From Owenia fusiformis (Eukaryota > Annelida > Polychaeta > Sabellida > Oweniidae): 64,000 nt of DNA. A program made the position numbers and the translations under genes. The DNA is taken from the NCBI GenBank assembly GCA_903813345.2, contig CAIIXF020000009.1:31563259-31627258 (forward strand), given 5' to 3'. Below the pieces are notes generated by a model that searched no databases, was not told the DNA's origin, and saw nothing but the letters and a program-made list of their open reading frames with translations. Below, in pieces: positions 1 through 64,000 of this stretch (position 1 is the stretch's first letter; every line of letters starts with the position of its first letter).

Positions 1-170
1 CATTATTTCAATTTGTAACTTTATAATTGTAACTCTCTAGTGATTAGAGGTAAATAAATATACAATACAATACAATAGACCTGGGAGTATGAATAAAGCC
101 AGCAGAAAGAATAAATATGTTTTGGAAAGTTGTGACGTAAACAAACTTGCCCCGCCATTTTGTTGTTTCG

Positions 171-184
171 GTTGCTATAGCAAC
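171..184. promoter_or_regulatory. RFX X-box-like palindrome
   Basis: The 14 bp sequence gttgctatagcaac is a perfect palindrome that fits the RFX X-box form (GTTRCC/AT-N0-RGYAAC type). A CRE-like tgacgtaa lies about 40 bp upstream at 133-140. No transcription start is visible next to it, so function is inferred only from the motif. Confidence 0.3.
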
Positions 185-388
185 CACAACTCTGGCCAAT
201 CAAATAGAAGACGCTTTAAATTCACAGAATAAAGGTAAATAGGTTTGGGCTACAAACTCTGAAAATTTCATCAAGATTGGTGCAATATTAAGAAAGTTAC
301 AATATCTTTCACCTTATTTATTGGACACCCTGTATATCTTAATATTAGGAAGTTGGGTTAGGTCAGAAAAGAACTCAGAAGTTTAGCC

Positions 389-998
389 TTAAAGGAATAT
401 TCCTTGCCAAACCATCTCTCTCCTCATATGGTAGCTATAACCATATATATGCTTGCCATGTTTAGCAAAACACGCAAAAATGTTTTGATACGGTCAAATT
501 TGATCACTTAGAAATGTGATGCTCAATTCCAGTAAGCTGCCATCTTTTAAAATTTCACACAGGAAGTGATGTCATCGACTCTCAACTTTGCATATAGCAT
601 TAGGTGAGGAGCTATTAAGAATTACAAAACCAGCTAAATATTCTTTTTCAACTTTGTATCTTATTTAATCCTTCTGAAAATCTCTTCTTTTATTCTAAGT
701 TGACAAGCCCTGAAAATATTTTTGCACAGAAAGTAATGATCACTTGTCTAGAAGTGATTTTGTGCTACTTTCCTATACTGTTATGGGCAAGGTTATAGAA
801 GTTGAGAGTTGATGACATCACTTCTTGCAAGAAATCTTAAAAGATGGCAGCTCACTGGAAATAAGCACTAGATTTTTAAATGATCAATATTGACCATATT
901 AAAACATTTTCCCATGTTTTGCTAAATATGGAAACTATATATATGATTATAGCTACCATATCAAGAGAGAAAGGGTCTGGCAAGGAATATTCCTTTAA
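389..998. mobile_element. Foldback/MITE element with ~220 bp inverted arms
   Basis: The left arm begins ttaaaggaatattccttgcc at 389 and the right arm ends with its complement at 998. Similarity continues inward for about 200 bp on each side (389-612 against 790-998), including the blocks with ggtagctataaccatatata and gatgacatcact. TTAA occurs at both ends and could be the target site or part of the symmetric ends. No coding sequence is present. It is a non-autonomous DNA element by structure; the superfamily is not assigned. Confidence 0.7.
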
Positions 999-1451
999 AT
1001 CAATGACACTGTATAATATTACATTAAGGGATATACAAAGCATACCTTTTTGTCGGTCACAATACAATATTCAGCTATTATATATATTGGATTAACATAT
1101 GTTAAGCAAGCATAATATAACATATCAACAAAAACCCTGAATTATCATAATTTCACCAAAAGCCTATCACATTATCCCATGTCATAAGTTTATTTTGAAT
1201 TTCAGTGTAATTTTTCACAAACTGATTTCAATAATAAACTTTGACAATAGTTTTTTTTTAATTACGTTGGGATCTCCATTTTTTCCTCAAGTAAGTCGAT
1301 GGATCATCCTCCAATAGATTGGGATGTGTAACCTCTGATCCAAAAATCACATATTTATTCAAGAAAAATGTCAAGAGAAATCTTCAATAAATTTCTGTTT
1401 CAAAAACAATATGTTAAATTAGCAGTATATTTTCTTTATATCTATCTAATA

Positions 1452-1596
1452 TTATATTGAAGAAACCTAAAAATTATGTATTATATTGTAGAAACCTAAA
1501 AACTATGTATTATATTGTAGAAACCTAAAAACTATGTATTATATTGTAGAAACCTAAAAATTATGTATTATATTGTAGAAACCTAAAAACTATGTG
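1452..1596. repeat. 29 bp minisatellite, 5 copies
   Basis: Five consecutive near-identical copies of a 29 bp unit starting ttatattgtagaaacctaaa. They differ only at a few positions (gaa/gta, att/act). The array lies in the presumed EXOC7 intron after exon 5. Read on the gene (minus) strand each unit contains a tttttag that looks like a weak acceptor, but no exon follows it. Confidence 0.9.
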
Positions 1597-1713
1597 CTAT
1601 GATAATCATAATACTAAATGGAAATGGACACAATAATGATGTATTTTGATGACAGAATTTCGGAAACAAAACCATTTAAATATTTATAATTCATTATTGC
1701 TCATTATACATAC

Positions 1714-3858
1714 CTTCCGTCTCTGATAGTTTATTCAAGAGAGCGATGGCTGGTACAGGCTTACTGTACTGTTGAAGAATGTCTTTGAATTCTCGCTCCA
1801 GTGAATCTTTCCCCGCTTCAAATAATGTGGTCTGAAAACAAAATGTTATTTCCTTATACCACTGTATCAGTCACTTTGCAGGTCCACAAAAGTGATTTAT
1901 CCAAGAGACACTTTTCATTGGATAGATAGAACATTATTTGGGATGTTGGAACTTATGACTGATTCTACTCGTCAATGTTCCCTTTCTATCTGTGTATTGA
2001 TTATTTCAGTTTTTATCACCTGGCTTAGAACATTTATAACACTGGTAAATATTAAATCCAGAATAAATACACTCTACCCTAGCCTAACCACAATGACAAC
2101 AACATTTGGAGATTTAGAGTTGGAACAAAATATCATCACAATTCATACCGCAGTTGACATTTCAGGACTCGCTGGGTTGTTGATTTTGAAGTAATCCATG
2201 GCTCCCTGTAGCTTCTCCATACATTCAAGGTAGTGCTCGAGTCCAGCACTGGGTCTAGGTGGAATAAAACAAAATACATGTTATAATTCTCTACTATTGC
2301 ATAATACGATGCAAAGATACTAAAATTTTGAAACAAATGTTGTGCTCTTATTTTTAAATATAAACTGAAGTTATCATCTCAAATGCAATCACATACATGG
2401 TGAACCAGTGCTTATGACACATCCTGATTATTATAGGAGAGATCTAGCTTCGGAAATTCTCATCATTTTGAGAAAATAGACTCTTAAAATATGTATCTTG
2501 GCCATTACAAACAATTATTACATTTGAAATGAACATTTTTATATTCATTTGTATTACTTACCCCTCTCGTATGTCATTGTCCACCTCTCTGGCAATATGA
2601 TAGAAATTTATAGCATTATCCAGTGATTGAAGGGTCTTTTCCACATCTGTGATTGGTTAAGGCTAAATCTTTAGGTAGAGAGTAGGGGAAACAAAAATTG
2701 ACAACAATAAGTAACTTACATAATTCTTTTTTACACAGAGCAGTTTTATCAATAATTAATTAAATAATCAACTTTTCCAATGACAAGATTTAGAGAGGTT
2801 CGTATTTTGAGGGTGCTACCAGAAGGTCATGACTTTGAATAACTTTACCATCATCAGATCCGCAAATTTCAAGTTCAAGTCATCCTGCCCAGCTTTAATT
2901 AAAATGCACAAAACTATGTGCATATATGTATGTTCCTTTGCTACTGAGCATATGTGGTTCTATATTCTAAAATGAAATAATGCAAAACAATAATGTCATA
3001 TACATGTGCATGATAACAGGCCATATTGCAATGAGGATACTTTCTTGACGTCTTTGTAAGTTGCCAGTTTCATTGTATACTGGTACAATTGTGTCTTCGA
3101 GTTTGCGTAGTCTTCCATCAAAGTTACTTAGAATTGTCAACATGTTTTCCGTCATCTGATTACTCTTCATGAGAGATGCCTTAAGGTTGGACAGATTTCT
3201 CATCTCCTGTAACAATGCATACATGTTAACGTTCTTGTTCTTGTGCTATATGATGTCCAGAAGTAGGAAAAACCAGGAAATTGTTTAACAGTGTGACAAG
3301 TACAAGTCCTTAATTGTACAATAATGTGAATAACAGTATCGTGATTTATTATTTAAGCTATTGACGGACAATGGATACATTATAATCTAAATCACTTTTC
3401 TTGTGTATCAATCAAACCTAAAAAATAAGCAAATGAAGGATCAATTATCACGAATACGTAATATTGTACGTGCAAAACTTTTGCATCAGTTCTATATCTA
3501 GTAAATCTGTGGCCTCTTTCATGAGCTTTCAACGCAATCACTCCAAGCTATACTACAGACATATGATATTGCACAGTGGCCTATTAATTGCTAATATTTC
3601 TTGATTTGATTGATTGATTGATCATTTATGATGCACAGATAAATAATAATAATAATAATAGCTTCTAAGAGACCAAATTGTCACATTTCATCTCCACCTT
3701 GATGAAATAGAGCTTGAGAACTCATTTTCATTTACATTTAAATGATTCTTACTGTCGAAACATATCGACAATTGAATCAGGAAATAATAAAATAAATAAA
3801 AATTTACCCGCTGAAGTTTCTCATCAATATCTGCCTTATTGACGATTGATTCGTCCAT
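1714..3858 (-). CDS. EXOC7: EXOC7/Exo70 exocyst subunit, 5' part (exons 1-5), partial
   Basis: Five minus-strand coding exons with matching phases: 3858-3808, 3206-3041, 2646-2562, 2254-2149 and 1831-1714, about 175 codons of an expected 650-700. Exon 1 begins MDESIVNKADIDEKLQR. Exon 2 carries the coiled-coil start with KSNQMTENMLTILSNFDGRL and LRKLEDTIVPVYNETGNLQR. Exon 3 reads VEKTLQSLDNAINFYHIARE. Exon 4 reads PSAGLEHYLECMEKLQGAMD. Exon 5 contains LFEAGKDSLEREFKDILQQY. These align in order with the N-terminal rod of vertebrate Exo70. Exo70 is the exocyst subunit that tethers secretory vesicles to the plasma membrane through phosphoinositides and Rho GTPases, but the lipid-binding C-terminus is outside the window. 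All internal junctions are GT-AG and the reading frame is continuous across them. The start is the first in-frame ATG, and intron sequence bounds the other exons. Confidence 0.9.
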
Positions 3859-4501
3859 TTTTACAATTCGTATGGAACCCTTCTATAATATTTTAAACAT
3901 GGTTTATATGAATGCGAGTCCTATCGTGTCAATACATGAGATACAAGGCAATGATTGAAGAAAATTTTGCAAAAATTAAAAACGGAAATGCGTCTTTTGG
4001 ATGGCAGTATGTCGTAAATTCGCACTAGTTTTGCGAACGATCAAAAGATTTGTTTGTAGATCACGAACGGATCATAAGCTCATTGAGACTGGGCCAATAA
4101 ATGAATAAGTTCAAAGTGAAAGTGTCGGCTAACACAATAAGATTCCACAAAATAAACTTTCACAATCAAGCAAACAATCGATCAATCAACCATCATTTGG
4201 ATAATCGAACTGCAATGACGCACAATCCGAAGGGGATTAGCAATGGTTAGCACAATCATCACAGCCGAAAATAAACATAATCAATCCTGAATTCCATGTA
4301 CTATACTAGGAGGTTCTGAACAAAACAATGAACACAATAAAATAAATTATGAAAAGATGGATCTATCTCGGGTTCAGTTTGGAATTGCGTTGCTCTGGCA
4401 CAATCAAATAACGGATTGTACAAATCACTTGATGTGAAACATTTGATGGGTTAATAAAATAATTCAGAAAAATCATTATGCAGACCGTAATAAAAACAAT
4501 G

Positions 4502-4520
4502 CCCCCCCCCCCCCTCCCCC
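4502..4520. repeat. Poly-C tract
   Basis: An almost uninterrupted run of C (with one T) on the plus strand, upstream of EXOC7. A similar tract occurs at 33181-33193 in a separate dispersed repeat. Confidence 0.9.
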
Positions 4521-5321
4521 GACACAACTAGAACATAAACTACCTGTGTAGTATCTTGACTACTGAGAGTTTCTCTCTCTCCCATCATGCCGTTTTCAAA
4601 ACTCTATTCCCCCAAGCTTCAGTCATTTTGAGTTGCCGTCTTAACTTTTGAATAATTATTATGTCACCACCATAAGTGTTATAGTCTCCAAGTCCAACAT
4701 CACTAGGCCTATGGCCGGTCATGGGACGTTGTCCTGCCTGTTCGGCGATTGGCATTTGTAACAAATTCTTTCGGAGTCAGGTACTGTTTAGACTGACTTC
4801 AAATTTTCACTGTCAAGATGTATTATAAAATATAGTTTCACGGTGTTCATATATTATGAGTTCTACTGACAAATCTGTGTCAATATCTGTTACCCGTGCA
4901 ACATATTGAAGGTCGAAAAAGGTCAAAACCACTACTTGCAATTGGTGACCTTTATCAGTTTAACGCCTTGTATTTTTCTTATAAAACTCACAAGGCGGCC
5001 ATCAGAACTCACCATTGGTCCGGATTCCAATGGTCCGAATCCCAATTATCCGAAATCCAATCGACCGAAACCCAGAATGGTCCGAATCCCAATTACACTG
5101 GTGTTAAACGTAGCTTGGACATACTGCTCCGTAACGTTAAGATCATGATACATGTATATCTGTGGGGGTTTCAAAAATTCTCTAGATCGCTTATTTGATA
5201 TATATGTTTCAACCACAAATGGTGTGAGTGAGCTTTTGTTCATATATATGGAAGCACGAAGATCGGTAAAATATAATATTAGAAAGGTTTGTTAAAAGAT
5301 TTCAGATTTGTCAAATTGTTT

Positions 5322-6450
5322 AACTTTGATGAGGCCATTTACAGTATCTCCTTGTTAAGTTTTTATCTCATTAATATTTATCAAAACCAATAGAAACCCA
5401 AGTGTGAGTACAGTAAAACCTTTGAATTACATTATTTAATTCAAAAGAGTTTGCTTGCCCGAATACCATTAGTGGTCCAAATCCTTATGTTCCGAATCCC
5501 ATATAATTGGTCCGAAACCCAATCGTCCGAGTCCCAACAGTCCGAATTAAATCCAATTAGTTGCCATTGGTCCGAATCCCATTGGTCATTTTAACATCTA
5601 AATTAGTTGTTGTGAGCGTTCTTGAAGAATTTACAAATTTACGCTATTCTGTTGTTGAACCCAAATCAAGTTTTCAAATGATGTCTTCGATTAATGTAAA
5701 GCTGAAATGGTACAAAATAATCGCAGTAGAAATGGTTTCGCATGTTGCAACGTATATGTAACGCAGCACGACACAACAGAACACGGCAATTTTTGAACAA
5801 AATCTTTTTACACTTTACGCAGCATTTGTACGAGTAATTGTTTCAGACTTTATCACAGTGTTTATGGAAACCCTGTATAATTCGATAACTGATCATAGTA
5901 CGTACATGGCTTCAGAGATATAAATAAACTATTTGTTAAATTTATTGAAATGCGTTTTACGGTTACAACCTCTTATCAAGACGTCCAAAAAGTCATCCTC
6001 ATAATAGTCAAAATGGCGGGTTTTATCTCAAGTATTTGCTTCAATGGGCGTTTCATTCAAACAAGGAATTCATAAGGTCATTGGGTGTCACGCATCAATA
6101 TGATGTTTTATTTCACGTTCACACTTTTCTTACATCCTTATCTTGACATAAAAATAAATCGGGCCGTCAGATCTAGGCGGAATTCGGACCAATGTTATTC
6201 GAATAACGTTAGGACCAATGTTATTCGAATTGGGATTCGGACGATTGGGTTTCGGACCAATGGAATTCGGAACTTAGGATTTGGACCACTCATGGTATTC
6301 GGGCCAAGCAAACTCATTTGAATTTAAACAATGCAATTCAAAGGTTTTACTAGTACTCACACTTGGGTTTTCTATTTCTATTGATTTTGATAAATAATGA
6401 AATAAAAAAACAAGGAGATACTGTAAATAGCCCCATCAAACGTTATCTGA
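5322..6450. mobile_element. Foldback element with arms carrying GTCCGAATCCCA repeats
   Basis: The left arm (about 5322-5570) and right arm (about 6180-6450) are inverted copies of one another. Shared blocks include tacagtatctccttgtt, cccaagtgtgagta, aaaacctttgaatt and gagtttgcttg. The inner part of each arm is a degenerate tandem of a 12-14 bp motif, gtccgaatccca on the left and its complement on the right. The 600 bp centre shows no coding similarity. A further patch of the same motif lies at 5020-5095, outside the arms. Structure suggests a non-autonomous foldback transposon. Confidence 0.7.
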
Positions 6451-6868
6451 CGATAAAAATTAGCAAGTGAAACCTTCTTATGGACTTTGGTGTACATCTA
6501 CTGTACGTGCAGTGTTCATTTTGGTCCATTTGAGCGATTCTTTGTTGTAATAACACAACAACAATTTTATAATATCACAACTATATATTGTATCATTATC
6601 ATAAACACATTCAAGTTATGTGTAAAACATATACTGCACAAATATCTTAAAAAATAAACAACTGTATGCATGTAAAAAACACTGCTCTAATTATTGGTTT
6701 CAGAGACTTAATGTCATGTATTAAGATGGAGCGGTGTTAAATGTGGTATAAATCTTATTTTTAAAATCCAATCACAACATTTAGTTGTCTCATATGTAAA
6801 TATGTATATACACATTTATACATTAAAGTAACATAAACTAAATGTTTTAAATAGTCAAATATCCAAAT

Positions 6869-7042
6869 ACGTAAAACCCGTGTGAGTGGAACACCATTGG
6901 GACCACAAAAAAGTGTTCCACTTGGGAGGTGTTCCACTTAGAGAGGTTCATTAATATGGAGAAGATAGGTCATGGGACTTTAAAACATTGTTCCACTTGT
7001 GAGGTGTTCCACTTACAGAGGTGTTTAACCTAGCAGGTTCTA
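6869..7042. mobile_element. Short MITE, GTTCCACTT family (copy 1)
   Basis: A sequence of about 174 bp starting acgtaaaacccgtgtgag and ending near aacctagcaggttctac. Inside are repeated gtgttccact(t/g)ggaggtgttccactt blocks. Related copies occur at 17022-17195 and 36330-36500. The end style (cagtaaaacctg) recalls Tc1/mariner-pogo MITEs, which is inference only. Confidence 0.5.
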
Positions 7043-7699
7043 CAACTGTGCTGTATATACATGAGATAGCTTATACATAATTTTGTACAATAAAAAGTAA
7101 ATACTGTTCCTGTTACTACATGTACTAAAAATTCTTTTTTAATCAAGACTTGTATCATATTATACATATATAAATAAATACTATAATAGTACATCTAAAG
7201 GTATATAAATGTATAAAATATACATAAATTATTTTCATTTCCTTTAAAAATTCCAAACTAGACCAATAATATTTTGTCTAGATAGATTTTGTCTATAGAC
7301 ATCAAATACAATGTATATGTAAAATGTCATTATACATTAGTATATGTAAAACCTCACAATCTATGTAAATCTGTACATACGAGACCTTTACAATATATAT
7401 AAAAATACATATTTTTGGTTGTTTCTATCACATTTTGGCAAAAAATACCTTATTCAATTCAGGGAATAATTTCCTTCCCTCCTAACTTTACTTCAAGGAA
7501 TACAGTATTATACGATATTAAATAATTGTGTTTTAATACCTGGAGCTAATGTACAACAAAAAAAAGATGATATCCCCCACCCCTGAAGTTGAAAATGTTG
7601 CTGTGTCTATCACTTAAATTTCCAAAAATCAACTTTCTTCATGATCCTAAATTACCCACCATCAAAAACCATCAAATTACAAGATAACCCATATAACAT

Positions 7700-10600
7700 T
7701 TAATCTTCAAGAGACAAGTCCTTTGCAGTCTGTTGTATAATTTCTAACATAAGGTCTTGAGGTAAGTTGCAAAATGCTCGAGATTTAGTAACGGCTGCAA
7801 AATTGTAGCTGATAAAGTCTAGACACATGGAACGCACATCATCTGAAATATAACATCGGCAACCATTTTTATAGCAATCGATATATGCACTGACTAACGC
7901 TTGCTGCATACATTATTCAAAAGTAATACCATTGACTGTCAACTCTTGAAAGCCCATGATAATACCTGGACTGCATCATCAAATAACATACCTTTTTATT
8001 ATGTAGTCACTTCTCAGAAATTATATATTTTAATAGCCTGCTAAATCTACAAAAAATTCTTTACATACCTAGGATTGGGAGCTTTTCAGTGGCTTCTCTG
8101 TAAATATCTACCACATTTTTAACCTTCATTTTACCATTTAGGTAGAATATCGCAAGATGACGTAAAGTCTCCATATTCAGTCGGTCACCAGCTGAAATAA
8201 GAATAGTCATTCTATATAAATTATGTACCACAGTAAATAACCAATAAATGTGATGTTCATAAAGCATCTCCCATATACCTAGCTACTGCAGATACAGTAG
8301 TCTTATGGATCCCAACTCTTCTGTAAAGTGCCCTAAAGTGAACAAGTTAATGAAAACATAGAATGAAATCTTAAAGTGAACTCCCCGAATCTGAGCATTT
8401 TTATCCATTATTGTAACACGAATTAAATGGTAAATATTTATATTTCAATGTTGCCCCTTGCATTTTCTGATGATTATAAATGTATACATGTTGTTACGTA
8501 CGAAAATAACAGAAAGTAAAAACAGCAATTAAAATATGATAACAATATATTTATATTTTGAAAACTAAATAATATGACAATAATATAAAGGAGGTTTAAT
8601 ACTTAAGTGATGTCCAATCAATGATACGGCTTATTCTTATGTCGATAAATGTCGTTGACGATCCTTGAGAATGTTCCAGATCACGAAAGTTTCAATAATC
8701 GTTAATAGTTCTCCAATGTTTGTAATAATTCAATAATGTTCGTCGTAATCCTATAATGTTCGTATCCAATAATGTTTGATGATAATCCACAAATGTTTAT
8801 GATAATCCACGAATGTATATGATAATCCGTATATAGTGTGTGTTGTAATATATGTCCATATAAACTCCTCAGGTTGTGTGTTTATAGTGTTATAAATGTT
8901 CCCAAAGTAGGTGTCTGTAATATTCTGCTAAGAAGATGTCTTTTGATCAACTTTGAAATTCTGCTAACAGCCCAAATCAGCTCTCTCATTATATAGTGCA
9001 AAGGCAAAGTCCAGATGTTTCAAGAAGTTACAATTTCTGGAAATCAACACTGATTGGACATCTTAAGTCACATGATTCAATCTTGATTTAATGATTATAG
9101 TTCCAGTACTTTCTAGAAGGCCAATGGTTAATGAGTCATTCAGTTCAGTTATGTTTACAAGATATAATGTCATTGTGACCTTGACCTAAGATCTCTAATG
9201 AAGATCAGTTACAGTATATGCATATTGATAAACTAAACTTAATGTGAATATAATAGAATATAATACTGTAACACCTCCCTCCTTAAAAGAAAAGTTTTGA
9301 ATACAATGAAAAACTTTTACAATAATATCTGGTGTAGCGAGGGTTACATTTTTTTTAAAGATGAGGTTGAGACTTACATAACATTTGTTTACAATAGTCA
9401 AATACAATAATATTTATAAAGTTACAGACTGAGTAAAACCCGAAAACATATTATACAATAATATTATCAAATCACACTCTAAGTACAATCTTTTATTATA
9501 TCAACACATAGCCTTAGGCAAATGCAGTATAAATAGAATAACCTCTTAAAAATAGAGACATTACACTCTTGAAAGAGTGTCAGCAATCAAATTATCCTTG
9601 CCTTTGATGTGTCTTATGTCAAGATTGTACTCTGACAATAACAGACTCCACCTCAACAATCTACGATTCTTGTTCTTCATTCTATGAAGGAATGTCAGCG
9701 GATTGTGATCAGTAAATACAGTAACCACATGAACTGGTGCACTAACATATACTTCAAAATGTTGTAATGACAGAAGTAATGCTAGACATTCCTTTTCTAT
9801 GGTGGAGTAGTTTTTCTGATGTTTATCAAATTTCTTTGAATAATAACACACTGGATGATCAATACCATCCCTTTCTTGTAATAGAACAGCTCCCATTCCT
9901 ACATCAGAAGCATCTACTTGAATCTTGAATGGCTTGCTAAAATCAGGTGCAACAAGCACTGGTTCTTCACTTAGTATGGCCTTGATTTTATCAAAGGCTG
10001 TATGACATTGCTCAGACCACACATATTTGATGTTTTTCCCAAGTAAATTGGTCAATGGAAGAGCAATTGAAGAGAAATTTGGACAAAACTTCCTATAAAA
10101 GCCAGCCATTCCAAGACTTCTCATTAATTCTTTCTTGTTAGTAGGAGCTGGAAGTTGTGTAATTGATTCCACTTTGGCACTCACTGGTTTGACCTGTCCT
10201 TGACCTACCACATGGCCCAGATATTCAACTGTGGCTTTACAAAATTCACTCTTAGCCAAATTGATGGTTAAATTGGCCAGAGAGATTCTTTCAAACAACT
10301 TACGCAGCAAACACATGTGTTCATCAAAAGTGTCAGAATAGACAATTACATCATCGATGTAAACACCAGTGTTTTTGAGATCTGCTAATAAGCCATTCAT
10401 CATTCTTTGAAATGTGGCAGGTGCATTTTTCATACCAAATGGCATAACTTTAAATTGGTACAAACCATCAGGAGTAACAAAGGCAGATACCTGTTTTGCT
10501 CTTTCAGTTAATGGAACCCCTAGGAATCCTTTGAGGAGATCAAATTTACTGACATATTTAGCAGTTCCAATTTTGTCAATACAGTCGTCAATTCGTGGTA

Positions 10601-32100: not shown

Positions 32101-35100
32101 ATAACCTACCCACTAGATATAATACGGGCCAGACTAGCATTCCAAGTTACAGGGGAACACATGTATGTGGGTATCATACATGCTGCAAAGACTATATTCA
32201 CATGTGAGGGTGGCTTGAGGGCCCTGTACAAGGGTATATGGCCCACGATGCTTGGCATGGCTTTATATGCAGGTGTGTCTTAAAGTAGTATGTTTTATTA
32301 TGCACCTCATTAAAATACTCGAATCTGATTGGTTAAGATCTGCAAGGTCTATTGCCATACGTGGCAGCAAGATCTCGTTCTATCCAGTATTGAAGCAACA
32401 AGATCTTCAACCATCCCGTATGCCAGAATACCTATACTCAAAAAAATACTAGGCTCGGCTTCTGTTTTAGTAGACCCATTCTTTAAAATAAAGTATTTCT
32501 TGACAATTTAACAGCATCTTTTATTTATCTTCAGTAAATTAATGGTAGGAATATGATATTAACCAAGGGAGGTGCATAATAATGGTGCATCACCTCGCCT
32601 AGTATTTTTTTCCCTCGGATAGGTATTCTGGCATATCCACCTCATGGTCATCCAGTATTTGTTTAATAACAGTTTTAATATAAGGTAGAAAGCTGTTTGT
32701 TTACTGTTTGATCAAGTAGATGCTCAGTAGGAATGTGGTTGTTGATGTATGTATAACTTACATGTTCTGTGGCACTAGATACTAAAAGTATTCGTAATAA
32801 TTGGGTTAATTTTCTGATGAATTTGTCATTATTTAAAAAAATTTAATGAATAAATTGGCTCACATCCCTACATACTTGCTGTAGTAACTGCTCCTTCTTT
32901 TGCCTTGTTTTGGAGAAATCTGCCTTTTTCACCATGTGAGTCCATTGAATGGTGCTATTTTTGAGATACAGTAGTCAGACCTTTTTTGTTCAAGTTCATT
33001 CTCATTGAAAAACCTATGAGTCTTCCTGTACATAAGACATGCACAGGCTTGTAGCCAAGGGATTCATGGGGTTGAGTCCCCCCCCTCCACAGGCCAAAAA
33101 ATGTTTTCAAAATCATGTCATTTTTCACCATTTTGAGCCAAAAATGTCAAATTTGAACCACCTGGAATTCTTTAAAACTGACCCCCCCCCCCCACCCCGG
33201 AATCCATCATACAATACATTATTTCTTCTCTTCAGGACCTTCGTTTTATGGCTTTGATACACTGAAGAGTATATGCCTTGAGAGGTTTCCTGAGACATGT
33301 GGCACAACAACTGCAGGTCACAATGGACCAATTCACCTGACTGTACCTGCTAAAGTGCTTTGCGGGGGTTTTGCTGGGGCATTTGCCCAAACTATAGCGT
33401 AAGAGCCATTTTTGTTGAAGCCCATTTCTTATTTTTCTAATATCTTTATTTTTCTCTGGGTGATTTCTTGTGAAATTATTACTTGTGAATTTGTCTATAT
33501 ACAATATACACTTTGTGAAATGGGAAAAACTCATGACATATTCAAAGTTTTGTTATTCATTTCTATCAGCTAGTCCGACATATACATGGACTTGAAAAAC
33601 AAACAGGAATGTCTGTCCATACTTCATAATATAATTCATAATTATTCTAAATTACAACTTGCTACTCTGACTACAAAACAGCAACTCGGTGCCTTTGATG
33701 AGTTTCAAAATACTCTTGTGTAGTACAAGGGTACATTCAGCCAAAAATGTCTCTAAAATCTGTAATATTTAATATTTTCATATGACATTATATACACACA
33801 TATAAAATATGTTGTTCTATTTATCATATGTTTTTTTGATTCTACCATGGGTAGTAGATACCCCCTTGCTGTAGTTCTATTTATCATATGTTTTTGATTC
33901 TACCATGGGTAGTAGATACCCCCTTGATGTAGTTCTATTTATCATATGTTTTTGATTCTACCATGGGTAGTAGATACCCCCTTGATGTAGTTCTATTTAT
34001 CATATGTTTTTGATTCTACCATGGGTAGTAGATACCCCCTTGATGTAGTTCTATTTATCATATGTTTTTGATTCTACCATGGGTAGTAGATACCCCCTTG
34101 ATGTAGTTCTATTTATCATATGTTTATGATTCTACAATAGGTAGTAGATACCCCCTTGATGTAGTTCTATTTATCATATGTTTTTGATTCTACAATAGGT
34201 AGTAGATACCCCCTTGATGTAGTTCTATTTATCATATGTTTATGATTCTACAATAGGTAGTAGATACCCCCTTGATGTAGTTCTATTTATCATATGTTTT
34301 TGATTCTACAATAGGTAGTAGATACCCCCTTGATGTAGTTCTATTTATCATATGTTTTTGATTCTACAATAGGTAGTAGATACCCCCTTGATGTAGTTCT
34401 ATTTATCATATGTTTATGATTCTACCATAGGTACCCCTTAGATGTAGTTCTATTTATCATATGTTTTTGATTCTACCATGGGTAGTAGATACCCCCTTGA
34501 TGAAGTTCTATTTATCATATGTTTTTGATTCTACAATAGGTAGTAGATACCCCTTGATGTAGTTCTATTTATCATATGTTTTTGATTCTACCATAGGTAC
34601 CCCTTAGATGTAGTTCTATTTATCATATGTTTTTGATTCTACCATAGGTACCCCTTAGATGTAGTTCTATTTATCATATGTTTTTGATTCTACAATAGGT
34701 AGTAGATACCCCCTTGATGTAGTTCTATTTATCATATGTTTATGATTCTACAATAGGTAGTAGATACCCCCTTGATGAAGTTCTATTTATCATATGTTTA
34801 TGATTCTACCATAGGTACCCCTTAGATGTAGTTCTATTTATCATATGTTTTTGATTCTACCATAGGTACCCCTTAGATGTAGTTCTATTTATCATATGTT
34901 TTTGATTCTACAATAGGTAGTAGATACCCCCTTGATGTAGTTCTATTTATCATATGTTTATGATTCTACAATAGGTAGTAGATACCCCCTTAATGAAGTT
35001 CTATTTATCATATGTTTATGATTCTACAATAGGTAGTAGATACCCCCTTGATGTAGTTCTATTTATCATATGTTTATGATTCTACCATAGGTAGTAGATA

Positions 35101-36967
35101 CCCCCTTAATGAAGTTCTATTTATCATATGTTTTTGATTCTACCATAGGTAGTAGATACCCCCTTAATGAAGTTCTATTTATCATATGTTTTTGATTCTA
35201 CCATAGGTAGTAGATACCCCCTTGATGTAGTTCTATTTATCATATGTTTTTGATTCTACCATAGGTAGTAGATACCCCCTTGATGTAGTTCTATTTATCA
35301 TATGTTTTTGATTCTACCATAGGTAGTAGATACCCCCTTAGATGTAGTTCTATTTATCATATGTTTATGATTCTACCATGGGTAGTAGATACCCCCTTAA
35401 TGAAGTTCTATTTATCATATGTTTATGATTCTACCATGGGTAGTAGATACCCCCTTGATGTAGTTCTATTTATCATATGTTTTTGATTCTACCATAGGTA
35501 CCCCTTAGATGTAGTTCTATTTATCATATGTTTTTGATTCTACAATAGGTAGTAGATACCCCCTTGATGTAGTTCTATTTATCATATGTTTTTGATTCTA
35601 CCATGGGTAGTAGATACCCCCTTGATGTTGTTCTATTTATCATATGTTTATGATTCTACCATAGGTACCCCTTAGATGTAGTTCTATTTATCATATGTTT
35701 TTGATTCTACCATAGGTAGTAGATACCCCCTTAATGAAGTTCTACTTATCATATGTTTTTGATTCTACCATGGGTAGTAGATACCCCCTTGATGTAGTTC
35801 TATTTATCATATGTTTTTGATTCTACCATAGGTACCCCTTAGATGTAGTTCTATTTATCATATGTTTTTGATTCTACCATAGGTAGTAGATACCCCCTTA
35901 ATGAAGTTCTACTTATCATATGTTTTTGATTCTACCATGGGTAGTAGATACCCCCTTGATGTAGTTCTATTTATCATATGTTTTTGATTCTACCATAGGT
36001 ACCCCTTAGATGTAGTTCTATTTATCATATGTTTTTGATTCTACCATGGGTAGTAGATACCCCCTTAATGAAGTTCTATTTATCATATGTTTTTGATTCT
36101 ACCATGGTTAGTAGATACCCCCTTGATGTAGTTCTATTTATCATATGTTTTTGATTCTACCATGGGTAGTAGATACCCCCTTGATGTAGTTCTATTTATC
36201 ATATGTTTTTGATTCTACCATAGGTACCCCTTAGATGTAGTCAGAAGGAGGATGCAACTTGCAATAATGCTACCAGATGCACATAAATTCAGGTAGGGGC
36301 AGAGATGAAGTAGGTGCCGCTTTCATATACAGTAAAACCTGTCTAAGTGAAACACCTTTGGTACCTCTTAAAAGTGTTCCACTTGGGAGGGGTTCCACAT
36401 ATAGAAGTTTATTTTAAGGGAATCTGAAGTGTTCAACTAATAGAGGTGTTCCACTTCTAGAGGTGTTCTACTAATGTTACAATGTAGGTTTTGCCAAACT
36501 GGTTGATGTTCACAAAGGAAACATCTGTTTAGAACTCAATATTTTAACTCTCGAATGAGTCAATATTTATCTATTCGTTCGGTTAGGCATATAGAGAAGT
36601 GGTCTATCTATTCGTTAGTGTGTCAGGGCAATAACTCATACAGAATCAGATTTGGTCCAAATTTTATATTCAATTAGGGACAATGCATGTTTTATATTTC
36701 CTTTGATTATTGCTTATACAATAAAATGTATAATTGGAGTTTAACTTATTGCTTTGAAAATGAAATATGAACATTCACTTGTATTATTTCAGGACCATGC
36801 ATGAAACATTGACAATAGTTCTTAAAGAACATGGAATAAGACGTGGCCTATATCGAGGACTAAGTGTCAACTACATCAGGGTTATACCTATGGTATCAAT
36901 GTCATTCACATCTTATGAGTTATTCAAACAAATATTTGGACTCGAGACTGGATTGGAGGGCAGCTGA
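23162..36967 (+). CDS. SLC25A16: SLC25A16-like mitochondrial carrier, 8 exons, 317 aa
   Basis: Exons: 23162-23222, 25796-25888, 30771-30904, 31213-31282, 32084-32272, 33236-33398, 36224-36292 and 36793-36967. All junctions are GT-AG and the phases sum to 954 nt. The protein has the three carrier repeats with signature motifs PFDRVK (exon 2), YPLDIIRARL (exon 5) and YPLDVVRRRM (exon 7). Close matches to human SLC25A16 include CAKTTVAPFDRVKILLQAHN, GLYKGNGAQMVRIFPYAAIQ, FQVTGEHMYVGIIHA and RRGLYRGLSVNYIR. SLC25A16 is an inner-membrane carrier linked to coenzyme A or its precursors in mitochondria. The length is close to the human 332 residues. The start is the only ATG placed correctly before the exon 1 donor. 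Oddities: exon 7 is only 69 nt and its acceptor is the last unit of a 43-copy minisatellite. Introns 1, 2 and 5 carry inverted-repeat elements. Confidence 0.93.
23431..23470. repeat. TCTACA/TGTAGA palindromic microsatellite
   Basis: Repeats of tctaca run into atctagatgtagatgt, then back to acatctacatc, making a hairpin-forming microsatellite. It lies in intron 1 of the carrier gene. Confidence 0.7.
23817..25003. mobile_element. Inverted-repeat structure enclosing a reverse-transcriptase fragment
   Basis: The left arm begins tggacagctgaataatagtg at 23817 and the right arm ends with the near-complement at 25003. Similarity extends about 150-180 bp inward, including ggagcgctgaa(a/g)tacttc and the gatcaag(a/g)cttgtaatt block. 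Between the arms, at about 24050-24700, lies a non-LTR retrotransposon fragment on the minus strand. Either a foldback element was hit by the retrotransposon, or the two halves are opposed copies of one 5' region. Confidence 0.65.
24061..24695 (-). pseudogene. Non-LTR retrotransposon RT remnant, internally deleted
   Basis: The minus-strand frames 24695-24381 and 24333-24061 encode pieces of a LINE-type reverse transcriptase. The first reads QQHGFTPGRSCCTQLLTVME and DVIYFDFSKCFDSVPHKRL (RT palm start, first catalytic Asp). It then jumps directly to C-terminal sequence KLEKVQRRATKLI. The second reads MIQVYKILNNLENLDSGLFF and QRIINDWNSLP, the conserved tail after RT. The palm core with the YADD-type box and the thumb are missing, and a stop or frame change separates the two pieces. 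It is a dead copy in SLC25A16 intron 1. Confidence 0.85.
27480..27665. repeat. ~62 bp tandem repeat, 2-3 copies
   Basis: Two good copies of a unit starting tgttagtacctcaa(t/c)tgaaatactc and continuing attctgattgg, then a weaker third. A related sequence (cctcattaaaatactcgaatctgattggtt) opens the MITE at 32296. Confidence 0.6.
28351..28523. repeat. 173 bp palindrome (hairpin)
   Basis: The arms acaaatagtgactgcca and tggcagtcactatttgt bound an almost continuous inverted repeat with its centre near ggcctgcagcc (about 28434). Open frames on both strands here are by-products of the palindrome. Confidence 0.85.
28866..29033. repeat. Imperfect palindrome built on TGTTGACC/GGTCAACA
   Basis: acaattgtagacctctcc at the left is complemented by ggaggtcaacaattgt at the right. 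Inner blocks gtaaacc, actgttgacctcgacc and their complements also pair. A related palindrome occurs at about 29250-29395, and tandem copies of tgttgaccgctactaggtac lie at 28531-28560. Confidence 0.6.
32296..32582. mobile_element. MITE with TTATTATGCACCTC ends
   Basis: The left end ttattatgcacctc (32296-32309) and right end gaggtgcataataa (32569-32582) are perfect inverted repeats. Further inverted pairing (ccagaatacctat with ataggtattctgg) extends beyond, to about 32636. It lies in SLC25A16 intron 5 just after the exon 5 donor. Confidence 0.65.
33045..33194. repeat. Dispersed C-rich repeat (copy), related to 31620-31740
   Basis: Both places read gtagccaggg/aagg...ggggtt(c/g)gg..., then accattttga/accattctga, and are C-rich. 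They appear to be diverged copies of one dispersed repeat, in introns 4 and 5 of the carrier gene. This copy ends in a run of 13 C just 40 bp before exon 6. Confidence 0.45.
33814..36240 (+). repeat. 43-unit minisatellite made of the exon 7 splice acceptor of SLC25A16
   Basis: I counted 43 consecutive units starting gttctatttatcatatg. Two lengths occur: 58 bp, with ggtagtagatacccccttga, and 51 bp, with ccataggtaccccttagatg. The 51 bp form (about ten copies including the last) is an exact copy of the true junction: tract, ccatag acceptor, then the first 17 nt of exon 7 (gtaccccttagatgtag). The last unit (from 36189) contains the real acceptor at 36222-36223 and runs straight into unique exon sequence. 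The array fills most of intron 6. Many 58 bp units have ccatggg, which removes the AG at the equivalent place. The array most simply arose by tandem duplication of a segment straddling the intron/exon border. Confidence 0.95.
36330..36500. mobile_element. Short MITE, GTTCCACTT family (copy 3)
   Basis: Begins acagtaaaacctgtctaagt and ends near aatgtaggttttgcc, an imperfect inverted repeat. The interior repeats gtgttccactt(g/c)(g/t)aggggttcca. It is the same family as 6869-7042 and lies in SLC25A16 intron 7. Confidence 0.6.
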
Positions 36968-40171: not shown

Positions 40172-43100
40172 ATGAAGAGATTGTGGACAATTGTTTACAT
40201 AACAGGAGCAATGTTTTCAGTTGGTGAGTAAAGTTGGTAATAATGGGTTTCTAGGAAAGCTAAGAGTACGCTTTATGCGTTTCTTGATTGTTATAATCAT
40301 AATTTAAACTACAGATACTTAATACATATAACGACCGAAATAATATGAAGACTTAGTTGAACAATATGCCAACTCGTCACTCAAAGGAATTATTTCAAGA
40401 ATTTTTAATGTTATTGTAATCATTCTCTGCTACTACACGCCTACCCATCGACAGGGTACAGTGACAAAATATACCGTAGTACACTTTAGATGTACGATGT
40501 CACTATTTAAACGATTTGAAGCAAAGACAATGATGTAGGTTTGATGTAGGTTTTAAAAAATAATCTGAGGAATGCATTAAAGGCCTCATGTAAAGTTTAA
40601 ACCACTTTGGCTTATATTGTAGTCTTACTCAATGTTATCAAAGTGTGATATGTGAAACTTTTTTTTTAAATTTCAAAAAGTGGTTTTTGATAGACTTTTT
40701 GTTCCAAAATTTGTGAATTTATTTAAAACCAACTTTTAGAAGTCACTCATATCTTCTAATTAGCCACAATTCATACCAATGCATAGCATTCATCCTCCCA
40801 TGTTTTTTGCCGAAAAGATTAAGAAAATCGGTTGATAAACAAGCGAGAAATGAACTTATCAGTGCATGAAAATGGTTCTGAGAAAAATGCATTTCAAAAT
40901 TTTAGTTCTCATAGAAACCAATGGTACAATGATATCTAAAACATAACTTATTCTTCCTCTTAACCTGGTTCAACAATCAACATTGTTTTTTATGAAAGTC
41001 TAGCATATTTAGAAAAGATTGACATCGAAAAAAAAATTCAATTTTTTTCAAAAAGTTTTTGGTACCTTAGTGACATCACTAAATGTTTCAAAATATTTTT
41101 GATAAGCTAAAACATTGAAGTGGCCCATTAAATATGACATTTTATTATTGAAATAGTGTGTCTTTTGTTCAATCTTTGCATTGGTGTTAAAAAGATAATC
41201 TTTTTTGAAATGCATTCAGAAATATTTGATGCCCGGGGGGTTCACTGTATATAAACCTTGACGGGGATCCTCGGCGCACATGGGGTACCTTTTTTGACAT
41301 TTGGTGGACTCAACTTTTAGGATGTGGTATGAGAATGCCCCCACATTATGACTTTTGAGGGATGGAAATGGTCAGATTTTTCAACTTTCTGGTATGAGAA
41401 TGGTCATAGAAAATATGTTAGATTATCTCACAATTATGGTATGGAATTGGTCTAGTAGTTACACATATCCTAATATGAGGTTGTTTTGGTTCGTTTTCCT
41501 CAAAGATTGCCTTCTTGTTGGGACCGTCTTCAGTTTAAATAAATAGTTTTTTTCCCAGGAAATATTCTACTTTGGACCAGCCATGGCATTGGTATGGCAT
41601 TGGTCCTATCTTTTTACATTTGGTATGGCATTGGTTTCATATTTGGGCATTTGGTATAGTTTTTGGGCACTATATCGGTTGGTATGGGAACACATCCAAA
41701 TTTGACATTTTGGTATGGGAATATATTGATATCTGAGGGTTCAGCCTAGGACCCCTGCCAAATGTTGTATACAGTGAACCCCTCGGGATTTGATGATTAA
41801 GAAATTTCAATATTTGAGAAATGAAATGCTCACAACTTTTTTTTCAAAATTTTTTTTTTGTTCAAAAATCTCTAAAATCACTTTTTAAGTCCTGACAAAT
41901 AGTAAATGAATGATAAAAAAATATTTTCAAACTTTAGACCGGGACTTTAAGGATTTCATGTTTGATTTTTTGTGTATTCGTTTAGAAACACATTTAACTT
42001 TCTAATGACATTAAACGATTTTCGAACAGTTCTCGATTTTTTTCGTAGTCATTCTACCCATATAATTGGTCGGTTGGAAAATGTTGTGTATTTACACATT
42101 TCCTTTGATCATTTCCTCCCCTGTCGTCTAAGAGTGTCGAAGATTTTTATGAGAATATGTTTTTGAAACAGCACAATTAAGGTCTGTTGAAGATTTAATA
42201 AGTATTAACATTTCGGCTATAATTTAAAAAAATCATAAGTGTATGTTGTCAACTCGAATGTACGTTGTCCCATTGAACTTACTCAATTCACAGTTAACCC
42301 TAATGCAGACAACGTATTTTTCATAACACTAACAGACAGGTACAGTCAGATGCATTTAAAATTGAAACAGAACGATTACAGAATTACTTTAATTTGGTTG
42401 AACTATTAAAACTTTCCAGATATATCATAAACGGGCTTTAAAAAGTCATACTAGTATTCAATAAGCTAGTATAGATCAGTAGATCTATCTATCAATGTAA
42501 CTGACAAAACGTAAGCTACAGACGCCAAATAATCAAACAGCTTTACCTGTGTTTACTTACAGCCAGTGCCACCACATGTTACCGTTGCATATTAGAGCTT
42601 TACCTGTGTTTACTTACAGCAATTGCCACCACATGTTACTATTAGATATTAGAGCTTCACATGTGTTTACTTACAGCAATTGCCACCACATGTTACCATT
42701 GCATATTAGAGCTTTACCTTTGTTAACTTACAGCTAGTGCCACCGCATGTTACCATTTCATATTAGAGCCTTGCCTGTGTTTACTTACAGCCAGTGCCAC
42801 CACATGTTACCGTTGCATATTAGAGCTTTACCTGTGTTTACTTACAGCCAGTGCCACCACATGTTACCGTTGCATATTAGAGCTTCATCTGTGTTAACTT
42901 ACAGCTAATGCCACCACATGTTACCATTGCATATTAGAGCTTTACCTCTGTTTACTTACAGCTAGTGCCACCACATGTTACCATTACATATTAGAGCTTT
43001 ACCTGTGTTTACTTACAGCAAGTGCCACCACATGTTACCATTGCATATTAAAGCTTTACCTGTGTTTACTTACAGTCAGTGCCACCACATGTTATCATTG

Positions 43101-46100
43101 CATATTAGAGCTTTACCTGTGTTTACTTACAGTTAGTGCCACCAGATGTTACAATTGCATATTAGAGCTTACCATTGTTCACTTACAGCTAGTGCCACCA
43201 CATGTTACCATTACATATTAGAGCCTTACCTGTGTTTACTTACAGTTAGTGCCACCACATGTTACCTTTGTATATTAGAGCTTTACCTGTGTTCACTTAC
43301 AGCTAGTGCTACCACATGTTACCATTACATATTTGAGCCTTACCTGTGTTTACTTACAGTTATTGCTACCACATGTTACCATTACATATTAGAGCCTTAC
43401 CTGTGTTTACTTACAGTTAGTGCCACCACATGTTACAATTGCATATTAGAGCTTATCTGTGTTTACTTACAGCTAGTGCCACCACATGTTACCATTGCAT
43501 ATTAGAGCTTCATCTGTGTTTACTTACAGTCAGTGCCACCACGTGTTACCATTGCATATTGGAGCTTCATCTGTGTTAACTTACAGCTAATGCCACCACA
43601 TGTTACCATTGCATATTAGAGCTTTACCTGTGTTCACTTACAGCTAGTGCTACCAGATGGTACAATTGCATATTAGAGCTTCATCTGTGTTCACGTACAG
43701 CTAATGCCACCACATGTTACCATTGCATATTAGAGCTTTACCTGTGTTCACTTACAGCTAATGCCACCACATGTTACCATTGCATATTAGAGCTTTACCT
43801 GTGTTCACTTACAGCTAGTGCCACCACATGTTACCATTGCATATTAGAGCTTTACCTGTGTTCACTTACAGCTAGTGCTACCAGATGTTACAATTGCATA
43901 TCAGAGCTTATTTGTGTTTACTTACAGCTAGTGCTACCAGATGTTACAATTGCATATAAGAGCTTATCTGTGTTTACTTACAGCTAATGCCACCACATGT
44001 TACCATTGCATATTAGAGCTTTACCTGTGTTCACTTACAGCTAGTGCTACCAGATGTTACAATTGCATATTAGAGCTTATCTGTGTTTACTTACAGCTAA
44101 TGCCACCACATGTTACCATTGCATATTAGAGCTTTACCTGTGTTCACTTACAGCTAGTGCTACCAGATGTTACAATTGCATATTAGAGCTTATTTGTGTT
44201 TACTTACAGTTAGTGCCACCACATGTTACCATTGCATATTAGAGCTTTACCTGTGTTCACTTACAGCTAGTGCTACCAGATGTTACAATTGCATATTAGA
44301 GCTTATTTGTGTTTACTTACAGTTAGTGCCACCACATGTTACCATTGCATATTAGAGCTTTACCTGTGTTCACTTACAGCTAGTGCTACCAGATGTTACC
44401 ATTGCATATTAGAGCTTTACCTGTGTTCACTTACAGCTAGTGCCACCACATGTTACCATTGCATATTAGAGCTTTACCTGTGTTCACTTACAGCTAGTGC
44501 TACCAGATGTTACAATTGCATATTAGAGCTTATCTGTGTTTACTTACAGCAAATGCCACCACATGTTACCATTGCATATTAGAGCTTTACCTGTGTTTAC
44601 TTACAGCTAGTGCTACCACATGTTACCATTGCGTATTAGAGCTTTACCTGTGTTCACTTACAGCTAGTGCTACCACATGTTACCAATACATATTAGAGCC
44701 TTACCTGTGTTTACTTACAGTTAGTGCCACCACATGTTACCATTACATATTAGAGCCTTACCTGTGTTTACTTACAGTTAGTGCTACCACATGTTACCAT
44801 TATATATTAGAGCCTTACCTGTGTTTACTTACAGTTAGTGCCACCACATGTTACAATTGCATATTAGAGCTTATCTGTGTTTACTTACAACAAGTGCCAC
44901 CATGTGTTACCATTGCATATTAGAGCTTCATCTGTGTTCACTTACAGCTAATGCCACCACCACATGTTACCATTGCATATTAGAGCTTTACCTGTATGTT
45001 ACTGTTACATATTAGAGCTTTACCTGTGTTTACTTACAGCTAGTGCCACCACATGTTATCATTGCATATTAGAGCTTTACCTGTGTTTACTTACAGCTAG
45101 TGCCACCACATGTTACCTTTGTATATTAGAGCTTCACCTGTGTTTACTTACAGCTAGTGCCACCGCATGTTACCGTTGCATATTAGAGCTTTACCTGTGT
45201 TTACTTACAGCTAGTGCCACCGCATGTTACCGTTGCATATAAGAGCTTCACCTGTGTTTACTTACAGCAATTGCCACCACATGTTACCATTGCATATTAG
45301 AGCTTTACCTGTGTTCACTTACAGCCAATGCCACTACATGTTACCGTTGCATATTAGAGCTTTACCTCTGTTTACTTACAGCAATAGCCACCACATGTTA
45401 CCGTTACATATTAGAGCTTTACCTGTGTTTACTTACAGCTTGTGCCACCGCATGTTACCATTGCATATTAGAGCTTTACCTGTGTTTACTTACAGCAAGT
45501 GCCACCATGTGTTACCATTGCATATTAGAGCTTTACCACACGTTACCACTGCATATTAGAGCTTTGCCTGTGTTTACTTACAGCTAGTGCCACCACATGT
45601 TACCATTGTATATTAGAGCTTTACCTGTGTTTACTTACAGCTAGTGCCACCACATGTTACCATTTTATATTAGAGCTTTACCTGTGTTTACTTACAGCAA
45701 GTGCCACCACATGTTACCATTGCATATTAGAGCTTCACCTGTGTTTACTTACAGCTAGTGCCACCACATGTTACCATTGCATATTAGAGCTTTACCTGTG
45801 TTTACTTACAGCTAGTGCCACCACATGTTACCATTGCATATTAGAGCTTTACCTGTGTTTACTTGCAGCCAGTGCCACCACATGTTACAGCTGTAATGGC
45901 GAAAATAACTTCAGGGACTACGAAAAATGCAAGGACGCATTTTCTGGCCTGGCAGACGTAAAGTATTGCAGTACACAATGCTTCAAGAAGAAATTTGAGC
46001 ACAAGCTTTTTGGAAGTAAGTCTACTCGGATAATCTCCTTTAGGAAATGGACAGGTTTTTATTCAAGAACATGATTTATAGGGGTTTTATTGATAGAAAG

Positions 46101-46534
46101 CCAGAGCCCAACACAATTGGCCTTTTCAAATTTTTTATTAATTTTAACCGATACTAGTATACATGTATACTGTATATAAAATAATAATATTCAGATATAA
46201 TTTTTGATATACTATATGCATGACGTTTATTGATAGTTTGTTGGCATTGAGATTTGTTCCTCGTGCTAGTTAATAGCCTCATTTTTACCATGGTTTTGTA
46301 TTCCCCTTTTCAGATTCTTGGTACAGAGTGGAGAGAGGATGTGCAAGTATATTTGACCAGAATGAGGAGGAATGGTGTACCACAACTGGACAATTCATAT
46401 ACGGCTCTGGAACTAAAATCACAACGTGTTATTATAAGGATGATTTGTGTAATACAGGAACACTCATCACAACACCAGCGTTGGCCATGATTACCTCTAT
46501 ATTAGCCACAACCATAGGTTTTGGCATAGTTTGA
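40172..46534 (+). CDS. Ly6/uPAR three-finger protein, predicted GPI-anchored, 139 aa
   Basis: Exons: 40172-40223, 45869-46015 and 46314-46534, with matching phases (52+147+221 = 420 nt). Residues 1-18 (MKRLWTIVYITGAMFSV + A) are a signal peptide. The mature part begins SATTCYSCNG, with cysteines at 23, 26, 38, 51, 55, 76, 88, 105 and 112 and the Ly6 hallmark CN at 112-113. The hydrophobic tail (about 121-139, ALAMITSILATTIGFGIV) ends the protein, as expected for a GPI-anchor signal. The cysteine count is nine, so one pairs atypically or is free. Ly6 proteins act at the cell surface as receptors or modulators; the ligand is unknown here. Another ATG at 40164 opens a four-codon upstream frame that ends inside the main start. 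Intron 1 (5.6 kb) is mostly a minisatellite copying the exon 2 acceptor. Confidence 0.88.
41232..41787. mobile_element. 556 bp TIR element with 8 bp target duplication
   Basis: The left end cccggggggttcactgtata and right end tatacagtgaacccctcggg are inverted copies. The 8 bp duplication atttgatg flanks both ends (41224-41231 and 41788-41795). The interior repeats tggtatgg(a/c)attggtc. The 8 bp duplication fits hAT or another 8 bp group; no transposase is present. It lies in intron 1 of the Ly6 gene. Confidence 0.85.
42541..45888 (+). repeat. ~58-unit minisatellite made of the exon 2 splice acceptor of the Ly6 gene
   Basis: Tandem units of mostly 57 bp (some 56) read tttacctgtgtttacttacag, then ctagtgccaccacatgttac, then cattgcatattagagc. 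Each contains a good acceptor (pyrimidine-rich tract, ttacag) and the first 20 nt of exon 2. The real acceptor is tttacttgcag, ending at 45868, and exon 2 starts ccagtgccaccacatgttac. The copy number of about 58 is span divided by unit length. Nearly all units keep the cag. The last five upstream acceptors end at 45583, 45640, 45697, 45754 and 45811, exactly 57 bp apart, and are in frame with exon 2. Confidence 0.95.
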
Positions 46535-63339: not shown

Positions 63340-64000
63340 CGAACAAAACATGTTTTGGTAAATAGCGGCCATATAAAATTTGAGCCAAATCCATCCACTG
63401 GTATTTGAATTATCAAAGATTGTGTTTTTATGATACATGGTTGCCAATTCAGCTGTCATCTTTAGATTTCTTTAGAGCTCCTATGTCCCAAGGCATCAGC
63501 ATATACAATTTAATCCAAATTCGTCAACTGGTACTTGAGTTATCAAGGATTACATGTTTAATGAAAAATTGTGGAGATTTCGATAAACAGCAGCCACCTT
63601 GAATATTTCTTCTCAAGCAGAGCTCCTTTATCTCTAGGCATCAGTATATACAATTTGAAGTAAATACGTCCAATGATATTTGAGTTATCAAGATTACCTT
63701 TTTTATGAAAAATGGCAGCCATTTTGAAATTCAGCTGACGCCTTTGAAATTTCTTCTGAAGCAGATCTCCTATTTCCCTAAACATCAGGATATAAAATTG
63801 AAACCAAATCCATCCACTGGTATTTGAGTTATCAATGATTATGTTTTTTTACGAAAAATAGCAGCCATTTTGAAATTCAGTGTCCATTTTGAAAATGTCT
63901 TCTTGAGCTAAACTTCTTTGTCTCCTAGGCATCAGCATATAGAACAATTTGAACCAAATCAATCAACTGGTATTTGAGTTATCAAAGGTTACATTCTTTT
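63340..64000. repeat. 130-150 bp tandem repeat, five copies, running off the edge
   Basis: The landmark gg/gtatttgagttatcaa recurs at about 63401, 63531, 63676, 63820 and 63970. Each copy is preceded by ggcatcagcatataca-like and aaccaaatccatccactg blocks and followed by atgaaaaatggcagccattt. Identity between copies is moderate. The array probably continues past 64000. Confidence 0.8.

Follow-up and report, generated by a model that had tools for sequence, protein, structure and literature searches.

A 57-bp minisatellite spanning the 3′ splice site of intron 1 in a Ly6-like gene of an annelid, and its likeness to the mirages of amphioxus

Introduction

How does an intron come to carry nearly sixty close copies of its own 3′ end, and which of these acceptors is joined to the preceding exon? 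The question is raised by a Ly6-like gene of the annelid Owenia fusiformis, located in a stretch of 64,000 nucleotides with a GC content of 34% (hereafter the window). A minisatellite in front of exon 2 of this gene was described in the original prediction, which read each unit as a splice acceptor followed by the first 20 nt of the exon. Both points are borne out by the array defined here with TRF, which holds 57 decoy acceptors ahead of the true one (Table 1).

The Host Gene and Its Array

The three exons of the putative host gene, the last two of which are separated by an intron of 298 nt, join in frame to give a predicted protein of 139 amino acids. In Pfam this protein is matched to QVR (E 2e-4; 22.7 bits against a curated cut-off of 27.3) and to uPAR/Ly-6 (UPAR_LY6, E 5e-3; 17.7 bits against a curated cut-off of 24.8), and a signal peptide in exon 1, the Ly6/uPAR cysteine pattern and a hydrophobic tail can be recognised by eye. 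With both Pfam scores under the cut-offs, these features are suggestive of a three-exon gene of the Ly6/uPAR type, and its exon 2 looks like a real exon, to judge from frame and splice signals.

Table 1. Features of the Ly6-like locus and of other arrays at splice sites. Positions are those of the window or, where a piece is named, of that 10-kb piece of the genome sample.
Feature	Position	Strand	Basis or remark
Exon 1, coding part	40172-40223	+	Phase and donor (GTGAGT at 40224) fit exon 2
Intron 1 (5645 nt), of which the array makes up more than half	40224-45868	+	Frame and splice signals
Left array breakpoint, ACAGCT	42537-42542	+	Same 6 nt at 45887-45892
57-bp minisatellite before exon 2	42539-45888	+	TRF, abutting or overlapping rows, 89-95% matches
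Array part within intron 1: 57 decoy acceptors, mostly 57-bp units	42539-45868	+	
Last five units; no others have acceptors that read into exon 2 in frame and free of stops	45584-45868	+	
Exon 2	45869-46015	+	Frame and splice signals (acceptor TTGCAG, donor GTAAGT)
Right array breakpoint inside exon 2, ACAGCT	45887-45892	+	Same 6 nt at the left edge
Exon 3, coding part to stop at 46534	46314-46534	+	Frame and splice signals
SLC25A16-like acceptor array; true exon 36224-36292	33809-36241	+	Mito_carr, E 8e-24
Acceptor mirage, BICC1 KH exon	L015, 9448-9837	minus	Pfam, E 4e-6
Array of GTGAG units at donor (GT at 8721), homeobox exon	L014, 8720-9196		E 2e-8
Donor-side mirage, zinc-finger exon	L022, 4718-5762	minus	zf-C2H2, E 4e-6
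Acceptor-spanning array, chitin-binding exon	L025, 3357-3598	minus	CBM_14, E 8e-6

When the array is cut at the acceptor, 58 acceptors are obtained, namely 57 within the array and exon 2's own immediately before position 45869. The 57 acceptor-to-acceptor intervals are mostly of 57 bp (46 intervals), with nine of 56 bp and single ones of 88 and 92 bp. Each unit opens with a copy of the first 20 nt of exon 2, continues with a 13-nt filler and closes with 24 nt taken from the intron end as far as CAG. Only one of the 57 decoy acceptors lacks AG, the other 56 retaining it, and the exon copy is mostly imperfect: it shows no mismatch in three units, one to four in 53, and eight in a single unit that carries an insertion. 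Over positions −20 to +20 the 57 decoys match the true acceptor at a mean of 36.0 of 40 positions (range 28 to 39), so that sequence hardly separates decoys from the true site, except for the G at −4 of the true acceptor, which occurs in none of the decoys.

The units differ from one another, with a mean pairwise identity of 0.90 among 55 of the 57 (the 88- and 92-bp units being left out), and local structure is weak, since neighbouring units are identical at 0.906 and units at distance two at 0.913 of positions in the same set. Long tandem arrays are hard to assemble and the copy number may be wrong, but a false join would not yield 57 diverged units, and an assembly artefact is therefore highly improbable as the source of the array.

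A further reading is that a dispersed satellite or a transposon fragment was inserted before exon 2, and tandem repeats are indeed common in this genome. The unit, however, holds the first 20 nt of exon 2 itself, and a 960-base query taken from the array, when searched against the species' own genome of 498 Mb in 525 contigs, gave five matches, all five inside the Ly6 array. This search, in which very frequent words are passed over and scoring is confined to the top candidates, matched no copy away from exon 2. Within these limits the insertion of a dispersed element is largely refuted, and we regard it as scarcely credible.

The claim that the sequence shares nothing with the array of an SLC25A16-like gene in the same window also stands: local similarity between units of the two arrays is no better than that obtained with shuffled sequences (457 of 500 shuffles score as high). 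The SLC25A16-like array has 43 acceptor-like sites including the true one, of which 29 have kept AG and 14 have lost it, and the exact match between its two edges is only 4 nt, ATGT. AG/GT is read at 29 of these 43 sites, and each of them could therefore act as a zero-length recursive splice point.

Reading Frame and Conservation of the Decoys

In the normal phase, a stop is met inside the array from decoy acceptors 1 to 52, while the frame stays open into exon 2 from acceptors 53 to 57. Splicing to a distal decoy should therefore yield a broken mRNA, and splicing to a near one would add 19 to 95 residues to the protein after the signal peptide. A coding variable-number repeat was considered and rejected, as the exon frame can be read through the common 57-bp unit, yet only the last five units keep this frame without stops; the frame is broken by the 56-bp and odd-sized units.

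Across 55 of the 57 units, mean conservation is 0.93 for the exon copy, 0.94 for the middle and 0.94 for the intron part, whose last 11 nt reach 0.96. The decoy splice sites are thus not clearly better kept than the rest of the unit, and selection on them was rejected as a candidate, there being no clear excess of conservation. The slightly higher value of the last 11 nt, and the G at −4 that is private to the true site, could be functional rather than due to chance.

These observations bear on the idea that the array is functional, with many acceptors used on purpose to make Ly6 isoforms of varied length or to tune splicing. Such a role would accord with the near-complete retention of AG and with the open, in-frame state of the last five units, but it is hard to reconcile with the stops met by 52 of the 57 decoys, with the interruption of the frame and with a splice-site part hardly better kept than its surroundings; it is considered very unlikely. 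A near-neutral array is the more probable reading, in which the five nearest acceptors would be used at a low level at most.

Origin of the Array

The two edges of the array have the hexamer ACAGCT in common, in register, one copy being intronic and the other lying 19 nt into exon 2. A run of at least six nucleotides shared across a random pair of positions has a probability of about 0.0025 (200,000 random pairs), and the common edge suggests that the first duplication took place between short direct repeats. The filler, CATTGCATATTAG, occurs in neither flank; on both strands of the window it has no copy outside the array at zero or one mismatch, and five such copies at two mismatches. Simple slippage fails to explain this filler, and so does duplication between direct repeats. 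Inverted repeats amount to ten pairs. In one, of 17 nt and 82% complementarity, the arms lie some way off on either side of the array; in another, of 14 nt, the right arm stops at the array's left edge. These two pairs are short and are taken as chance.

The array most likely arose as follows. A tandem duplication would by chance have taken in the boundary between intron 1 and exon 2 of the Ly6-like gene, presumably seeded between the ACAGCT direct repeats, and the filler would have joined the unit early. By slippage or unequal exchange the array would subsequently have grown, lengthening intron 1 and leaving unaltered the last copy, which is the sole one continuous with the full exon 2 and its donor. 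In the original prediction, emphasis was placed on an array lying upstream only, with the true exon last. This is accurate as a description, but it does not amount to a separate finding, because a tandem duplication across an acceptor must leave the true exon last, just as one across a donor places it first, as at the zinc-finger exon described below.

Splice-Site Choice

The last acceptor is most likely the one used, since the splice sites of an exon that lies between long introns are recognised together; the acceptor nearest to the donor across the exon would win, and the decoys would be largely ignored. As stated in PMC9225289, the site nearest across the intron wins where introns are short and the site nearest across the exon where they are long. 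With the two introns of the Ly6-like gene, this rule predicts the last acceptor. The limit for long introns in that work is 250 nt, which intron 2 barely exceeds, and its minigene tests concerned 5′ sites. The classical rule of Reed and Maniatis, which is centred on the intron and is cited in PMC9225289, would instead choose the first acceptor. A single intron with so many similar acceptors, from which one has to be selected, directly tests pairing across the exon, in which the last wins, against pairing across the intron, in which the first wins.

Taken as a whole, the Ly6 array is likely to be a 'mirage' like those of amphioxus compared below, near-neutral, seeded by duplication and with its last acceptor chosen by exon definition.

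Splice-anchored Arrays Elsewhere in the Genome

A sample of 18 arbitrary 10-kb pieces at round coordinates, 180 kb in all, contains 25 arrays covering 15.5% (about 16%) of its length under one threshold set. More than half of this coverage comes from two pieces. One of them, L008, carries 145-bp tandem units at 1-4568 and 8308-9853 that by eye look like tandem tRNA genes on the minus strand, and the other, L017, is a GC-rich piece (0.515) consisting almost entirely of a 70-bp tandem repeat (168-9969). A 144-bp array occupies 63474-64000 of the window and runs to its end, and a 103-bp array is found at 775-1102 of L019, the 4 kb that directly follow the window.

Four of the 25 sampled arrays sit on splice sites of exons that can be recognised, two of them on acceptors and two on donors, and so do two of the eight arrays within the window. 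First, the array at the BICC1 KH exon has two decoys and the true acceptor, with units of 128 and 133 bp that include 43 nt of exon. Second, at the chitin-binding exon there are about 3.5 units of 70 bp; TGTAG is read at two of three acceptor-like sites, and the precise position of the true acceptor is ambiguous. Third, behind the zinc-finger exon stand eight copies of 119 bp, in each of which about 86 nt of exon precede the donor CAAAA/GTAAGTC, so that nine donors are found at an exact spacing of 119 bp with the true one first. Fourth, the array at the homeobox exon, HLX-like by eye, starts at the donor within 1 nt and has almost no exon in its unit.

Splice-anchored arrays thus look genome-wide. 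Scaled to the genome, four per 180 kb corresponds to about 11,000 (95% range 3,000-28,000). ORFs beside arrays were inspected first in the sample, and the count of four is therefore not blind. In an array-blind scan of ORFs covering 16 of the 18 pieces (L008 and L017 being left out), exon-like ORFs free of an adjoining array were found among the 130 of 212 segments listed, including four in L007 that are stathmin-like by eye.

A more general cause would be a mutational process biased towards splice sites, for example through transcription, R-loops or splicing itself, which would make such arrays throughout the genome, the Ly6 array being one of thousands. The proportions of splice-anchored arrays in the sample and in the window are in its favour, as is the Poisson probability of at least four such arrays under random placement, which is 0.004, 0.02 or 0.08 for an assumed 60, 100 or 150 splice sites (calculated with 26 arrays, the exact count being 25, and an assumed target of 75 nt per site). 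On the other side, the order of inspection favours cases of this kind, the homeobox case offers a donor with almost no exon, and the acceptor of the chitin-binding case is ambiguous. Since the probability depends on how many splice sites the sample contains, a figure that is itself assumed, a bias is possible rather than shown; and since arrays fill about 16% of the sample, chance hits at splice sites are to be expected and the bias is not proven. It seems doubtful that tandem duplication prefers splice sites, with the result that splice-boundary minisatellites are found in thousands of introns, at acceptors as well as donors.

If the sample rate holds, there would be thousands of natural tests of the kind offered by the Ly6 array, at donors too, far beyond the few genes known from amphioxus, and they would show the ease with which introns can lengthen by incorporating copies of their ends. 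If splice-biased duplication is true, competition between splice sites would be put to a natural experiment across the whole genome, which would also have a continuing supply of intron growth and of new introns.

Comparison with Known Arrays

Ordinary minisatellites that arise between short direct repeats have such a repeat at both breakpoints and expand later. The Ly6 array differs from them in that the segment apparently seeded contains a 3′ splice site, to which the 13-nt filler is added.

Closer relatives are described in amphioxus, where 'mirages' are splice-boundary minisatellites in the globin genes BflGb6 and BflGb9 and in Adh3 (PMC3087553), to which TnC and PGBD5 are added in PMC3902484. 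Their units, which like that of the Ly6 array span an intron-exon boundary with a splice site and an exon end, are found at acceptors and at donors and measure 10 to about 160 bp (PMC3087553), a range that includes the 57 bp of the Ly6 unit. Length polymorphism, even somatic, is among the traits reported. BflGb6 has six and three units in two haplotypes, as against 57 decoys in the Ly6 array. The amphioxus data, obtained by RT-PCR, suggest that regular splicing is undisturbed (PMC3087553). The name was given in cephalochordates, and the host group is no defining trait of the structure; the Ly6 array belongs to an annelid, and thus to another phylum.

In human genes within segmental duplications, internal tandem repeats at exon-intron boundaries are reported in PMC2812944. 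They share with the Ly6 array the expansion of a minisatellite across the boundary; their mean unit is 30 bp, they have about four copies on average and belong to recent primate duplications, and new introns or alternative splicing can result from them (PMC2812944).

Among the titles and abstract openings listed in a search of one literature library, no title dealt with such arrays in an annelid. Splice-boundary minisatellites are already published for amphioxus and human genes, and the novelty implied by the original prediction is therefore unsupported. The Ly6 array belongs to this known type, of which it is a very long representative from another phylum.
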